Shown: in pieces, positions 6,163 through 13,454 of the stretch
Numbering within the stretch: position 1 is the stretch's first letter
How the letters are laid out: each line of letters opens with the position of its first letter
The notes under the pieces: model-generated
What the model saw: the letters and a program-made list of their open reading frames with translations, nothing else
Database searches by the model: none
What the model was told of the DNA's origin: nothing
Program-made: the position numbers and the translations under genes
Assembly: GCF_004087835.1 (NCBI RefSeq)
Contig: NZ_CP035119.1
Span: forward strand, 1,798,001-1,862,000
Reading direction: 5' to 3'
DNA: 64,000 bases
From: Halorussus pelagicus
Lineage (GTDB): Archaea; Halobacteriota; Halobacteria; Halobacteriales; Haladaptataceae

Positions 6163-6390
6163 ACATTTTTACACGAGTCCGTCCGTATAAACGTTCCTGA
6201 GTGTTGTCGTCGTGCCACAGAAATCGAGGGACGTGACTCGAACGGTTCGGAGAGGGAGAGTAGGTTTCGTCTGTTCCAGTCGTCGGACTAACCGCTCTTC
6301 GGTCGCTGGCGCGGAAGCGTGTGGATAAACCTCGGCGGACGTGGGGGAAACAGAGATAGTGTGTCGGAAGGATAGAGTCTGGAAAGAGCC

Positions 6391-6427
6391 GAAGAGTAGA
6401 TTTCGTCTGTTCTTGGTAGTCGTTTCG
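6391..6427 (+). repeat. Origin repeat, copy 2
   Basis: It shares GTCTGTTCTTGGTAGTCGTT and most flanking bases with the copy at 6441-6477. These two are the longest and most similar members of the array, with cores 52 bp apart. Confidence 0.85.
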
Positions 6428-6440
6428 ATTGCGCGTCCGC

Positions 6441-6477
6441 GGAGAGAGTACGTTTCGTCTGTTCTTGGTAGTCGTTC
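6441..6477 (+). repeat. Origin repeat, copy 3
   Basis: It is nearly identical to the copy at 6391-6427, including the purine-rich lead (GAGAGAGTA here) and the TTTCGTCTGTTCTTGG core. The regular spacing suggests cooperative initiator binding. Confidence 0.85.
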
Positions 6478-6807
6478 GCGTGATCGAGTCGGGAGAGAGA
6501 AAGAGTACATTTCGTGAGTTTTCGTGAGTGAGGTCGCCGTCGGAGACAACAATTTTCGTGCATACTTCGTCCGTTTTATTGGGTGGTCTACAGATGGTGG
6601 AGTATCGACGGTGTTCGAGGAACCCGTTTCGACACATGCAGAATTCACGCTATACGAGTCCGTTTCAATACACAAATCGGACGTTTCGTCTGTTCTTCCG
6701 TGGAACGGACGTTTCTAGCTCGATATCGGGTATAAAGATAGTAATATATGTTTGTGTAGCGGCAACACCTGTCTCACGACTTCTAACGCCAACTCTATAG
6801 CGTATTT

Positions 6808-6871
6808 CTCACGAAATACTCTCCCCCTCACTAACTTAAAGAAACAAAACTCACGAAACTCAAGAACAGTA
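6808..6871 (-). repeat. Inverted origin repeats, copies 6 and 7
   Basis: On the minus strand this segment reads CTGTTCTTGAGTTTCGTGAG and then GAGAGTATTTCGTGAG, matching the core of the copy at 6492-6530 (TTTCGTGAGTTTT). The two copies face the upstream five across an AT-rich stretch, as expected for paired origin boxes. Confidence 0.7.
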
Positions 6872-6872
6872 G

Positions 6873-6882
6873 TTTTATATAC
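6873..6882 (+). promoter_or_regulatory. TATA box of orc1
   Basis: TTTTATATAC is centred about 32 bases before the orc1 ATG, so the transcript is probably leaderless or nearly so. It adjoins the last inverted origin repeat, so initiator binding there could repress its own gene. Confidence 0.65.
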
Positions 6883-6909
6883 TTTCTGTCGGAGTTCAGA
6901 CCGAGAACA

Positions 6910-8109
6910 ATGGGCGGGCTGTTCAGCGACGTCACGGACACTATCTTCCTCGACAAGGAAGTCCTCGAAGAAGAGTACCAGCCGGACGAAATCCTCGAAC
7001 GCGAGGAGGAGATCGATGAGTACAAAGCCGCGTTCAAGGACGTTCTGTTCGGTCGAAACCCCTCAAACGTCATGCTCTACGGAAAGGCTGGCGTCGGAAA
7101 GACGGCGGTCACGCGCTACGTCCTCGAAGAACTCGAAACGGAGACCGACCAGCGCGAGGAGGCCGACGACCTCTACGTCCACCGTCACAACTGCAACGGC
7201 GACACGATGTTCAGTGCCGTCCGAACCTTGGTCAACGGACTCCTCCCCGAGGGAAGCGCGCCGTTCCCGAAGAAGGGTCTCTCGACAGCAGATGCGCTCG
7301 AAGAGTTCTACAGCCAACTCGACCGCCTCGGCGGAACCCACTTGGTCGTCTTGGACGAAATCGACCACCTGCAGGACGCGAACGAACTGCTCTACGAACT
7401 CCCGCGCGCTCGCGCGAACGACTACATCTCCAAAGCCCGAATCGGCGTCATCGGCATCAGCAACAACTACACCTTCCGACAGCGCCTCTCAGCGAAAGTG
7501 CAGGACGCGCTGAAGGAAGAGGAAATCTCGTTCAGCACCTACGACGCCAACGAACTCCGGGCGATTCTCCACGACCGCGCCGAGAAGGCGCTCTCGGACG
7601 AGAGCTACTCGAACAGCGCCATCGCCAAGGCCGCCGCGGTTGCCGGACGCGACACCGGAAGCGCCCGGCAGGCCATCGATCTCCTCCGGAAGGGTGCGGA
7701 GATAGTCGAACAGAACGACGAACCGATGGTCGAGGACGACCACATCGGACTCGCGCGCGAGGCGGTCAAGCGCGGCCGTCTACAGGACAAAATCGAAGAC
7801 CAGTCGCTTCACGCCCGACTCGTCCTCGAAGCGGTCGCGCAACTCGACCACGTCGGCGAGACGCCCGCCCGCTCGAAGGAGATAATGAAGATGTATCGCC
7901 GCGTGGCCGCCAAGCGCGCCGAGGAGCCGCTTACGACGCTCAAAAGCATTCAAAACCACCTCAGCGACCTCTACATGCTCGGGTTCCTGCTCCGCCGCGA
8001 GGAGAACGAGGGCCGGAAAGGCGGGTCGTACCACGAGTACGACCTCGATATGGACCCCGACGTGGTCTTCGAGGTCTGCGACGAACTCGACAGGGAAGAG
8101 GCGGTGTAG
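6910..8109 (+). CDS. orc1: Orc1/Cdc6 replication initiator
   Basis: A 399-residue AAA+ ATPase of the archaeal Orc1/Cdc6 family, which binds origin boxes and loads the MCM helicase. The Walker A motif GKAGVGKT is at 58-65 and Walker B VVLDEIDHL near 146-154. The lid domain follows, and a C-terminal winged helix covers about 300-390. The length is typical. It starts at the ATG downstream of the TATA box. The repeats in the upstream region are the likely cognate binding sites. Haloarchaea encode several paralogues, each tied to its own origin, so the number of this one cannot be assigned. Confidence 0.96.
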   Translation: MGGLFSDVTDTIFLDKEVLEEEYQPDEILEREEEIDEYKAAFKDVLFGRNPSNVMLYGKAGVGKTAVTRYVLEELETETDQREEADDLYVHRHNCNGDTMFSAVRTLVNGLLPEGSAPFPKKGLSTADALEEFYSQLDRLGGTHLVVLDEIDHLQDANELLYELPRARANDYISKARIGVIGISNNYTFRQRLSAKVQDALKEEEISFSTYDANELRAILHDRAEKALSDESYSNSAIAKAAAVAGRDTGSARQAIDLLRKGAEIVEQNDEPMVEDDHIGLAREAVKRGRLQDKIEDQSLHARLVLEAVAQLDHVGETPARSKEIMKMYRRVAAKRAEEPLTTLKSIQNHLSDLYMLGFLLRREENEGRKGGSYHEYDLDMDPDVVFEVCDELDREEAV

Positions 8110-8382: not shown

Positions 8383-8445
8383 ATGTTCGGAATTTGTGTT
8401 TACTACGACGACGCCGGTGTCTGTCTCGAGTACGGTAAGTGGTAA
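8383..8445 (+). CDS. Candidate 20-residue peptide
   Basis: The frame reads MFGICVYYDDAGVCLEYGKW and then TAA. It has a near-perfect Shine-Dalgarno site, two cysteines nine residues apart, and an aromatic/hydrophobic composition unlike the acidic bulk proteins. There is no export signal. The stop codon is the first part of a 10-bp hairpin stem, so termination of translation and RNA folding are physically linked. It may be a functional microprotein or a regulatory leader peptide; no family is recognised. Confidence 0.5.
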   Translation: MFGICVYYDDAGVCLEYGKW

Positions 8446-8673: not shown

Positions 8674-9558
8674 TTATCCGAGGTCCGCTCGCTTGAACTG
8701 AAGGTAGCCCACTATAATTGGAAGGACGACCCAGCAGGCCAGGATGATGAGTGAAAACCACTCATCGAGGTAGAAGGGCACTTCGCCGCCGATTCGCTCG
8801 GCCAGCGTCGGCCCGACATTGCTTCCACCGCTCGTCGCACCCTGTCCCTGCGAGACGTTCACGCGAGTCGCATTGTTCGACAGAAACAGGTTTGCGGCGC
8901 TCTTGAATGCGTTCGTCGGACTCAGTCGTTTGACGAGGACGAACCACGCGGGAACAGTCGTTCCCGGAAGGTCTCCGAAGGTGACGACGAAGTAGATTCC
9001 CTGCGCGATGATGTTCCACAGCAACTCGAAGACGAAGAACACGCCAACCGCCATCGACATCGCGCGGTTCCGATTCCCGGATGCGGCAGAAATAGCCACC
9101 GCGATTCCGACGATGGCGATTCCGAGTACGACCGTGAGAACCGCGAGTAAGGCGTACGGACCGAGCGGTAACGCCCCGTAAACCGCAAATCCGACGACGG
9201 ACGTAACGAGATAACTGATGAGAATCGCAACGCTAACCACCACCGCCCGACCGAGGTACTTGCCGACCACCACATCGCGGCGAGTGTACGGAAGGCCTAG
9301 TAGCATCCGAATGCTTCCGGTGTCGCGTTCGCCCGCGATAGCGAGATAGCCAGTCACGAGCGCAGTGATTGTAACGAACGTGGCGACCGGTGCGAGCATG
9401 TACTGTGGCAGAGTCGCTGGGTCTACGTCGTTGAGGGCGACGCTCGGGAGGAAGACCGCTGCCGATGTGACGACGGTCAGAATTGCGGTTGCGACCCATA
9501 ACCCTCGAGAGCGCATCGAATCAGTAAACTCCTTCCACGCGAGGAGTTGGACGCTCAT
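8674..9558 (-). CDS. ABC-2 type permease
   Basis: A 294-residue membrane protein with about six helices and a large external loop (about residues 195-255), the fold of the ABC-2/NosY-type permeases that work with a separate ATPase. The segment AIAGERDTGSIRMLLGLPYTRRDVVVGKYLG (split about residues 73-103) is the diagnostic cytoplasmic loop that contacts the ATPase. Its start overlaps the end of the ATPase gene by 4 bp (ATGA), so the pair is translationally coupled. The substrate is unknown. Confidence 0.92.
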   Translation of the reverse strand: MSVQLLAWKEFTDSMRSRGLWVATAILTVVTSAAVFLPSVALNDVDPATLPQYMLAPVATFVTITALVTGYLAIAGERDTGSIRMLLGLPYTRRDVVVGKYLGRAVVVSVAILISYLVTSVVGFAVYGALPLGPYALLAVLTVVLGIAIVGIAVAISAASGNRNRAMSMAVGVFFVFELLWNIIAQGIYFVVTFGDLPGTTVPAWFVLVKRLSPTNAFKSAANLFLSNNATRVNVSQGQGATSGGSNVGPTLAERIGGEVPFYLDEWFSLIILACWVVLPIIVGYLQFKRADLG

Positions 9559-10478
9559 GCTTCGACCACCTCTTGACCGTCGTCCTCGGTGTAACTCTCG
9601 AACAGTTCCTCCAGCGAAGCCTCGTCTACGTCGATGTTTTGCAACGTCACGCCGGTGGACTGAACGGCGTCGATGGCTTCGCTCTTCGTCTCGTCAGCGT
9701 CACAGGTGACGATAATTTGATTCCCGTCAACCTCAACGTTGGAGACTCCCGTGATGCCCCGGAGCGAGTCGAGAGACGGTAGCTCATCAACCGTCAGTGC
9801 TACCCGTGAACCGCTACCGAGCGTCTCTCGGAGACTGTCGATACTGTCCTGTGCGACGAGAGAGCCGCTTTTCATGATACCGACGCGGTCGCACACCGCC
9901 TCGACTTGACTCAGAACGTGACTGGAGAAAAAGACGGTTGCACCGCGCTCCTGTTCTTCGTTGATAATTTCTCGCATCCGACTCACGCCGTGAGGGTCGA
10001 GTCCCGACGACGGTTCGTCGAAGATGAGCAGATCCGGCGAGTCGACGAGTGCGATGGCGAGTGACAGTCGCTGTGCCATTCCCTTCGAAAAACCACCAGC
10101 CTTGCGATCTTTCGCATCCTCCAGCCCGACCCGATCTAACAGTTCATCGACCGAGTCGTTGGCGTCCTTCGATGCGACTGCAAATTTGACGTGTTCGCGT
10201 GCGGTGAGACGGTCGTACAGACTGCCGTTGTCGGGGAGAATGCCGATTCGCTCTCGAATCTCGCGGGTCTCTCGCTGACTGTCGTACCCGAGTACGTTTA
10301 CCTCGCCTGAGGTGGCGTGAATGTAGTCCAGCATGAGGTTGATAGTTGTCGACTTTCCGGCCCCGTTCGGTCCGAGAAAGCCGAATATTTCGCCGTGCTC
10401 GACCGTCAAGTCGAGATCGTCCACGGCGACGATGTCTCCGTATCGTTTGGTCAAACCGACTGTTTCGATTGCAGGCAT
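9555..10478 (-). CDS. ABC transporter ATPase, ABC-2 system
   Basis: A 307-residue ATPase with Walker A GPNGAGKST near residue 40, a signature region GGFSKGMAQRL near 130 and Walker B LLIFDEPSSGLDP near 150. A C-terminal extension of about 80 residues is typical of DrrA/CcmA-like ATPases partnered with ABC-2 permeases. It is the first gene of a two-gene minus-strand operon with the permease. An AT-rich promoter (TTTAAATATA on the minus strand, about 10515-10525) lies upstream. Confidence 0.95.
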   Translation of the reverse strand: MPAIETVGLTKRYGDIVAVDDLDLTVEHGEIFGFLGPNGAGKSTTINLMLDYIHATSGEVNVLGYDSQRETREIRERIGILPDNGSLYDRLTAREHVKFAVASKDANDSVDELLDRVGLEDAKDRKAGGFSKGMAQRLSLAIALVDSPDLLIFDEPSSGLDPHGVSRMREIINEEQERGATVFFSSHVLSQVEAVCDRVGIMKSGSLVAQDSIDSLRETLGSGSRVALTVDELPSLDSLRGITGVSNVEVDGNQIIVTCDADETKSEAIDAVQSTGVTLQNIDVDEASLEELFESYTEDDGQEVVEA

Positions 10479-10624
10479 TGGTGAATAAGTACCGTTTGTA
10501 TCTACTATACTCTATGTTATATTTAAACGTACTCGTATAGGTCCGACGACTATTAGCTGTGATTGGGGGAGTTGTGCATCGACTCCTCACTTGAGGTCGG
10601 AGCAAAGGACCAACAACGTCTCGT

Positions 10625-11503
10625 TCAACTGGTCTCCGGGGCGCTCAGTCCGATGCGCTCGTTAACTCCGAACAGGATCGCGGCGCACATGACTAACAAG
10701 AACACGAGGGTGAGTGGTGTGTTGGTCAGGCTGACGGTGGTCCCGAGTGGTCCGGGTTCAGAGAGGACAAGGCGGAGCAACGCGGAGTCGGGGGTACCGT
10801 TCGGTCCAGTGGCCCGGACGATACGAGCGCCGAGGAAGAAGTTCCAGCCAGCGTGAACGGCGACAGCGTTCCAGAGGTTCCGAGTCCGATAGACGATCAA
10901 GCCGAATAGAACCCCGCCGACTACCGTACGACTGACAACTAACCACAGCTCAATCTGTGAGTCGGCTCGGCCCGTGTGTAGAACGCTGAAGACTAGTGCT
11001 GGCGCGATAATCGCCACGGCAGCGTTCCAGCGATCTTCGAGCAGTCGGAACAGTATTCCTCTGAAAACGAACTCCTCCAGTATCCCCGTAAACAGTCCGA
11101 TACCGATGCTTCCGACGAGCCAGAGAAGGACCGTCGAGAGGTCAGTATTAGTTTCGATTATCTCCCCGCTCTGTACGAGGAAATTCCCACCAGTCGCAAT
11201 CGCAGGCAGAGCGATGCCGATTCCGACCCACCAGAGAGTCGAGCGGTTCGGATCGCTGAACGTAAACCAACGAAGCGAACGGCGCATGACGACTCGCGCG
11301 TATATCCCGACGCCGAGGAACGTGGCGACGAGTCCGAGAATCGAATACTGTAACACGTCGGGAACTGGTGCCGAAACGAGGTCCGACAGTTGGTCCGTGG
11401 CGACGATAATGAGAAGCAAACAGATGATCGCACCGAGTGCCATCGGGACGACTTTCCAGATCGGAAGGTCGCCCAACCCCTGATCGTTGCGTGTCTCGAA
11501 CAT
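10625..11503 (-). CDS. CPBP family intramembrane metalloprotease
   Basis: A 292-residue protein with about eight membrane helices. It carries the EExxxR motif of the CPBP (CAAX protease/Abi) family in LEEFVFRG and the second conserved His motif in FSVLHTG about 40 residues later. Family members are glutamate-type intramembrane proteases; in prokaryotes some give self-immunity to peptides. The gene is on the same strand as the ABC-2 pair but is separated by about 145 bases with its own spacing, so co-function is only possible, not shown. Confidence 0.9.
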   Translation of the reverse strand: MFETRNDQGLGDLPIWKVVPMALGAIICLLLIIVATDQLSDLVSAPVPDVLQYSILGLVATFLGVGIYARVVMRRSLRWFTFSDPNRSTLWWVGIGIALPAIATGGNFLVQSGEIIETNTDLSTVLLWLVGSIGIGLFTGILEEFVFRGILFRLLEDRWNAAVAIIAPALVFSVLHTGRADSQIELWLVVSRTVVGGVLFGLIVYRTRNLWNAVAVHAGWNFFLGARIVRATGPNGTPDSALLRLVLSEPGPLGTTVSLTNTPLTLVFLLVMCAAILFGVNERIGLSAPETS

Positions 11504-12737: not shown

Positions 12738-12761
12738 CTCGGATTTCGCTAGCCCAACGTG

Positions 12762-13454
12762 ATGGAGTCCCCGTTCGACGTGTTACTCGTCGATGCCGAT
12801 GCCGACGACGAGGAGATAGAGCAGGCGTACAGGCGGCGGGTGAAAGACGCCCATCCCGATCAAGGCGGTTCGGTCAAGGAGTTTCAGACGGTCCGGCGCG
12901 CGTACGAGAAGATTCAGGCTGGCTACGAGGAGAACGGGAGCGACGCCGGGACCGATTTCGCGGGACCGAAGCGCGACGCCGAACCGGAGCGGGGCGCACA
13001 ACCGGAGAGCGACCCGGAACCCGAGCGGGCGTATTCGGAGGTCGAATATCTCAACTACGACGTGCTGAGCGATTTCGGCTGGCAGACCGACGACGCCGAC
13101 CTCTTCGGGAAGGCGGCCGCCGCGGACTTGGACGAGGTCGATTACGGCGCGTTCGAGGTCCATCCCGGCGAGTCACTGCTCGAAGCGGCCGAGGACCGCG
13201 GTTTCGCGTGGCCGTTCGCCTGCCGCGGCGGGGCCTGCGCCAACTGCGCGATTCTGTTGCTCGACGGCGAACTATCGATGCCGTCCAGCCACGTCCTCCC
13301 CGAGGAGTTGATGGAGCAGGGCTTTCGGTTGTCCTGCAACGGCATGCCCATCACCGACGAGTTGCAGGTCGTCTACAACGTCAAGCACATGCCCGAACTC
13401 GACGAGTTGCTGTTGCCGCCCCAACCGTTCGAGAACGCGTATCCCGACAAGTGA
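12762..13454 (+). CDS. J domain fused to 2Fe-2S ferredoxin
   Basis: A 230-residue protein in three parts. Residues 1-55 form a DnaJ-type J domain with the HPD motif at 31-33. An acidic linker spans roughly 56-115. A plant-type [2Fe-2S] ferredoxin domain covers about 125-225, with CRGGACANC (C-x4-C-x2-C) and a fourth cysteine in LSCNGMP. Haloarchaea are known to carry such fusions. The ferredoxin probably carries electrons, while the J domain suggests docking to a DnaK-type chaperone or a structural role. GTG at 12759 directly precedes the chosen ATG and is the alternative start. Confidence 0.93.
   Translation: MESPFDVLLVDADADDEEIEQAYRRRVKDAHPDQGGSVKEFQTVRRAYEKIQAGYEENGSDAGTDFAGPKRDAEPERGAQPESDPEPERAYSEVEYLNYDVLSDFGWQTDDADLFGKAAAADLDEVDYGAFEVHPGESLLEAAEDRGFAWPFACRGGACANCAILLLDGELSMPSSHVLPEELMEQGFRLSCNGMPITDELQVVYNVKHMPELDELLLPPQPFENAYPDK

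Follow-up and report, generated by a model that had tools for sequence, protein, structure and literature searches.

A candidate replication origin in Halorussus pelagicus whose boxes carry their string purines on the opposite strand

Repeat array and initiator gene

The window, i.e., the whole 64,000-nucleotide stretch analysed here, covers C1:1798001-1862000 of a source genome of 3.49 Mb in four contigs, and contains an orc1/cdc6 gene preceded by a 747-bp intergenic gap. Within this gap the pattern TTTCGT[CG][AT]G occurs eight times, starting at 6265, 6401, 6453, 6510, 6520 and 6684 in the forward and at 6808 and 6850 in the inverted orientation, with the copies at 6510 and 6520 overlapping at a 10-bp offset. 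The other 63,253 bases of the window contain no match, and a sample of 786 kb from the rest of the source genome gave 16, so that 0.015 copies would be expected in the gap. The exact form TTTCGTSWGTT matches six times in the window, all within 6265-6858; dinucleotide shuffles are expected to give 0.13 matches, and 0 of 100 reached six. Of the longer unit CAGACGAAAYSTACTCT, the entire genome contains three exact copies, all in the gap before orc1. The locus contains the following features, in window coordinates:

6250-6276, minus strand: ORB copy 1, wing 6265-6275, purine string 6250-6262, reading GAACAGACGAAAC-CTACTCTCCCTCTC on the minus strand
6391-6412, minus strand: ORB copy 2, wing 6401-6411, string 6391-6398
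6441-6464, minus strand: ORB copy 3, wing 6453-6463, string 6441-6450
6491-6530, minus strand: ORB copy 4, wing 6510-6520, string 6491-6507, overlapping second wing 6520-6530
6668-6696, minus strand: ORB copy 5, wing 6684-6694, string degenerate here and GAGAGTAC in orthologues
6720-6760, no strand: AT-rich candidate unwinding element, 68% AT, TTTATATCTTTG-like in orthologues
6757-6765, plus strand: TAGCGGCAA, conserved element, roughly midway between the ORBs on either side, with the inverted ORB wing about 51 bp away
6808-6831, plus strand: inverted ORB, wing CTCACGAAA at 6808-6816, string TACTCTCCCCCTCAC, aligned across seven genus members
6850-6867, plus strand: stringless promoter half-box pair, CTCACGAAA then degenerate CTCAAGAAC, 42 bp from the inverted ORB
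6873-6881, plus strand: TATA-like box of orc1 (TTTTATATA), read from sequence, with a TTTTA or TTTAT core in 7/7 aligned orthologues
6910-8109, plus strand: orc1/cdc6 initiator gene, 399 aa, with AAA+ ATPase, lid, ISM hairpin (about 97-140) and C-terminal winged helix (Pfam Cdc6_C, Cdc6_lid, AAA; PDB matches)

In the PDB, the encoded Orc best matches 2v1u and 2qby, archaeal Orc1 structures with bound DNA, and the locus is, on sequence grounds, almost certainly where a replication-initiator protein docks on the DNA. The repeats that the initial annotation placed directly before orc1 are real and adjoin an intact orc1/cdc6, with eight in the gap, none elsewhere in the window and 0.015 expected, though it counted seven (five plus two) instead of six forward and two inverted copies. 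Its TTTCGT(C/G)WGTT-type unit captures the core and part of the true unit, which is longer, GGGAGAGAGTAC-RTTTCGTSTGTTC. The repeats were also said to flank an AT-rich stretch, which is correct for the copy at 6684 and the inverted copies, but the other five forward wings are located well to its left. The stretch itself is 68% AT at 6720-6760 compared with 37% for the window, but it is modest: the most AT-rich 100-mer of the gap ranks just fifth in the window.

Some further features were recorded separately. In the AT-rich gap after orc1, a short plus-strand ORF at 8383-8445 (MFGICVYYDDAGVCLEYGKW, 20 aa) precedes an ABC-2 permease, an ABC ATPase and a Rce1/CPBP-type protease (8674-11503, minus strand); it is possibly a small exported peptide, and was absent beside the orthologous orc genes checked. 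At 12759-13454 (plus strand) a DnaJ domain and a 2Fe-2S ferredoxin domain are fused. About 11 kb to the left of the array, at C1:1793620, stands a lone full box, GAACAGACGAAATCTCCTGTCTGTC, which could be a titration or regulatory site. At C1:2697351, 376 bp upstream of another orc (L002), GAACAGACGAAACAGCGGAAATGGTGG joins a wing of the window family to the canonical box of the neighbouring Orc and adjoins a TATA-like stretch, making cross-regulation between the two initiators possible.

Box anatomy and the distribution of the Orc family

Read in ORB orientation the box is GAACAGACGAAAC-GTACTCTCTCC, with the wing first and the string second. The wing ACAGACGAAAC and the ACAGCGGAAAC box of other own-genome Orcs differ at 2 of 11 positions. 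In the paralogues L002 and L003, runs of the GGGGTGGG type follow wings of the ACAGCGGAAAC type, and in the paralogue L005 GGGGGG follows CTCTCGTGAAAC. The string is another matter: on the GAAAC strand, pyrimidines take the place of the expected G-run, and the purines are on the opposite strand. Instead of the G-string by which halophile ORBs are recognized (PMC3528665, PMC4595724), GAAAC is here followed by GTACTCTCTCC, and the G-C skew of the string is -0.53. Polarity about the AT-rich centre matches that of paralogue L003, with the wing inside and the string outside. The window box is, in short, a class in which the usual G run has moved to the opposite DNA strand. The earlier suggestion that the core is unlike the common haloarchaeal ORB applies to the string and not to the wing; because the wing is nearly that of the common ACAGCGGAAAC box, the core is less odd than it looked and the real departure is the string.

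How the box is distributed was followed through loci of the same Orc family, taken from genomes and from plasmids. At nearly all of these loci, arrays of the window box class occupy the intergenic gaps on both sides of orc, with essentially no boxes of this class inside the orc reading frames. Around own-genome paralogues, or Orcs of other genomes at about 40% identity, no arrays were found, only stray single matches. The same box class and Orc family occur together across several haloarchaeal families, in many genera that include Halobacterium, Haloferax, Halorubrum, Natrinema, Haloarcula and Haloquadratum. This supports the proposal that the box is tied to its Orc paralogue, but does away with the idea that it is specific to one lineage. 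At two loci of Halocatena marina (L080, L122), nine box copies follow each other at an exact 56-bp spacing, as in iterons.

The locus is accessory, as the gene is found at 90% identity or above in just 7 of 18 sampled genus members, the source genome included; two of the sampled members have extra-chromosomal orc copies of 68-72% identity. A member of the family is present in 3 of 15 Haloferax species, which suggests that the window Orc family is not the chromosomal orc1/orc2/orc5 set. The Orc and its box array behave as an accessory origin-initiator pair with a patchy distribution. Such pairs are described for haloarchaea in general in PMC3528665, as is the rule that ORBs are specific to Orc families; for its oriCa and oriCb families the threshold is at least 80% identity of an Orc to family members. 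The window Orc falls outside the oriC1 family: the own-genome Orc with oriC1-like boxes (TCCACCCGAAACGAAGGGGTC) is a different gene, C1:1378186-1379445, just 32-36% identical to the window Orc, in two pieces. A nucleotide search with the intergenic gap among plasmids gave no match. Conserved synteny was considered on account of a PQQ beta-propeller gene beside both the window orc and the H. mediterranei plasmid copy, and was rejected as the two are only 25% identical.

String classes and residue 122 of the ISM hairpin

Within the Orc family the string takes three states on a nearly constant wing: GAGGGGTGTG (G), GTACTGTGTG (GT), found in Halocatena and Actinarchaeum, and GTACTCTCTC (CT). The rule that separates the classes was confirmed on loci added after it was framed. 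In the trees the G state is that of the sister family, whose boxes read AACACTCGAAAT followed by the G-string CCGGGGTGGGG, of the clade of Halorubrum, Halobellus and Haloquadratum, and of L069; the CT state is that of the window clade and most others. From this placement the G-string, kept by basal members and the sister family, is most simply ancestral and has been replaced once or twice. The G-string members of the family (the Halorubrum, Halobellus and Haloquadratum loci among L060-L087 and L193-L199, and L069) share the wing ACAGACGAAAC (CTCACGAAAC in L069), and their Orcs are about 57-61% identical to the window Orc; they differ from it in the string GAGGGGTGTG and in a Thr at ISM position 122. 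Variation of the wing itself is seen as CACTC boxes in the Halorussus plasmid copy L018, the H. mediterranei plasmid copy L121, and L032.

Residue 122 (window numbering) is Thr in all 27 G-string rows and Lys or Arg in all 70 others, and is the only informative column out of 399 that fully separates the string classes in this 97-row table. The N-terminal columns 2 and 3 separate them only because nearly all G rows are gapped there. The pattern was spotted on 68 classified rows and then held on 25 newly fetched ones. L057, where both box types occur at one locus, was left out of this test, and L084, though excluded from the first discriminator scan, is part of the final table. Five of the ten best discriminating columns fall within 97-137 (hypergeometric p=0.0015, a guide only, as both the region and the length of the list were chosen post hoc). 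A candidate second switch at residue 112 (Arg to Leu) fitted the first set, but failed on L192, L200, L032 and L121.

An AlphaFold model (mean pLDDT 79) places residue 122 in the loop that joins helix 100-111 to helix 126-140, i.e., in the ISM hairpin. Reading of the G-string by the AAA+ domain and ISM is known from a few crystal structures, where the contacts are van der Waals rather than base-specific; in the crystal of A. pernix Orc1, the ISM touches the G-tract (PMC9738581). The pattern is consistent with a natural switch of initiator specificity, in which replacement of Thr at the ISM tip by Lys or Arg caused the ORB string to change from a G-run to a purine tract on the opposite strand, giving incompatible and orthogonal origin-initiator pairs that share the same wing. 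We hold this only tentatively, at distinctly less than even chances; if it is true, GTACTGTGTG in Halocatena and Actinarchaeum represents a further string state. The string and residue 122 require just one or two changes on the tree, so we make no statistical claim of independent co-change. With so few changes a paired-lineage test has no power, and since many other Orc columns also differ between the clades, residue 122 may have hitch-hiked with the string class by common descent instead of recognizing it, a serious contender that still falls somewhat short of an even chance. What hitch-hiking does not readily explain is that 122 alone among the informative columns separates all 97 rows, that the next best columns cluster in the ISM, and that Thr at this position is also found in several own-genome G-string paralogues, in the Orc of the oriC1 type, and in Sso Orc1-1.

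A few loci depart from the one-class pattern. At L057 (Halalkalirubrum salinum) G-string and CT-string boxes are present at a single locus, and in genome G169 (L288) a G-type and a CT-type orc lie about 8 kb apart; given these two cases, composite origins may exist. An own-genome Orc paralogue outside the family, L006 (C1:495573-496721), has Arg at the aligned position 122 together with ACATCCGCGA repeats and no obvious G-string box, and is possibly an independent case of the same string and residue switch.

Origin function and relation to known systems

Taken together, the gap is probably an ORB-type replicator paired with its own Orc1/Cdc6, with a string that was switched within the Orc family and Lys or Arg at ISM position 122 as its likely reader. 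The locus has what archaeal ORB origins beside orc1/cdc6 have in the broad sense: an adjoining initiator gene, six plus two repeats about a centre of 68% AT, and a repeat type kept with its cognate Orc family. Other archaeal Orc1 proteins have been shown to open AT-rich DNA and recruit MCM with ATP. By analogy, Orc monomers would bind the left array and the inverted box, with the wing towards the AT-rich centre and the string outward, and in the presence of ATP would melt the AT-rich stretch and bring in MCM. The likely site of melting and MCM loading would be the AT-rich centre with TAGCGGCAA. The family's string would have switched from the G-string GAGGGGTGTG to GTACTCTCTC, with purines now on the opposite strand, and the ISM hairpin, where Thr122 is replaced by Lys or Arg, would be the likely reader of the new string.

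The same Orc probably also binds the stringless half-boxes beside the TATA box and represses its own gene. The half-boxes lie 41-42 bp from the inverted wing, and a strict tandem 9-bp half-box pattern matches at 46 of 113 loci (a pattern with 4-bp spacing gave no match, the true period being 9 bp). In L018 and L121, where the ORB wings read CACTC, the promoter half-boxes likewise read CACTC. The position beside the TATA box and this matching change point to autoregulation through the half-boxes by the same Orc. Sulfolobus Orc1-2 is a transcription regulator, and half-boxes that directly adjoin the TATA box would also be expected if the Orc were a regulator whose array controls orc1 only, without any origin. 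Two of the four winged-helix arginines that mark initiators in PMC9738581 (the RR pair of Sso and Ape Orc1) are moreover Lys-Ser in the window Orc family. However, parts of the RR pair are also missing from own-genome paralogues with G-string boxes, so these arginines are no guide in haloarchaea, and as many as ten long boxes spanning some 900 bp, with inversion about an AT-rich centre and an element at fixed distance, are more than a promoter needs. We therefore consider a purely regulatory array quite improbable.

A replicator may also be maintained without firing. Predicted haloarchaeal origins can be dormant (PMC3528665, PMC4595724), and dormancy is common in the group, as is known for orc-adjacent origins of Haloferax mediterranei (PMC4595724). 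A degenerate or dormant origin, with boxes and Orc maintained but the site silent in normal growth, would fit the degraded string of box 5 in the source genome, the accessory distribution, and the lack of a GC-skew turn at the site within 100 kb, though the skew was also weak at the three other orc loci sampled. Yet the orc is intact, and the seven aligned orthologues all retain box 1, the inverted box, the box 5 next to the DUE, and the element at its usual spacing (one has TAGCGGAAA). We consider dormancy rather unlikely.

The element TAGCGGCAA is single-copy in the window. Its general form TA(G/C)CGG(C/A)AA is found upstream of orc at 13 of 113 loci, at -152 to -165 and in all three string classes, against a background of 0.015 per kb. 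The distance to the inverted wing is 50-52 bp in 11 of the 13 and 40 bp, about one helical turn less, in another; in the last no wing was matched. Seven of the 13 loci are close genus orthologues, so the independent evidence comes from the more distant L018, L019, L069, L086 and L088. As its AGCGGCAAAC resembles the AGCGGAAAC wing of another own-genome Orc, the element could be a mini-ORB for a second initiator. In Sulfolobus oriC1, with ucm and UBP (PMC12141716), a short conserved element likewise lies in the DUE between inverted ORBs, and ucm is essential there; however, ucm is an AT-rich 11-mer (oligo GCTTGGTTTAATTATACAAACTCAATATTT) and the window element is TA(G/C)CGGCAA, so the likeness is in position and not in sequence.

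The probable replicator described here shares much with the haloarchaeal G-string-ORB origins of Wu et al. (2012, PMC3528665) and Wu et al. (2013, PMC3936714): the orc adjoins the repeats, inverted ORBs surround an AT-rich centre, each ORB type is paired with an Orc family, the pairs are patchy on chromosomes and plasmids, and ORBs sometimes lie on both sides of the gene. It differs in the string, which is a G-run after the wing in those origins and GTACTCTCTC here, with purines on the other strand. The predictions in these papers selected ORBs with a G-string. The window Orc also shares its fold, domain order and ISM hairpin with A. pernix Orc1 and with S. solfataricus Orc1-1 and Orc1-3 on origin DNA (2v1u, 2qby), but has Lys at 122 where Sso Orc1-1 has Thr, and is without the RR pair in the wH helix. 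In the texts of archaeal-origin papers, we found neither the letters of the box in print nor a description of an ORB class with opposite-strand string purines that sits within a group of G-string relatives and tracks a residue of the ISM; these comparisons covered running text, and the supplementary and figure logos of PMC3528665 may already depict the class.

Family-specific ORBs are already known, and the new part suggested by these alignments is a string class with opposite-strand purines that tracks an ISM residue. Origin predictors that demand a G-string may consequently miss a whole class of boxes. TAGCGGCAA is a candidate third origin element, at a position comparable to that of the Sulfolobus ucm. 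The family also provides a natural series, in which the wing is nearly constant, the string has changed and one ISM residue changes alongside, and which makes origin discrimination testable.
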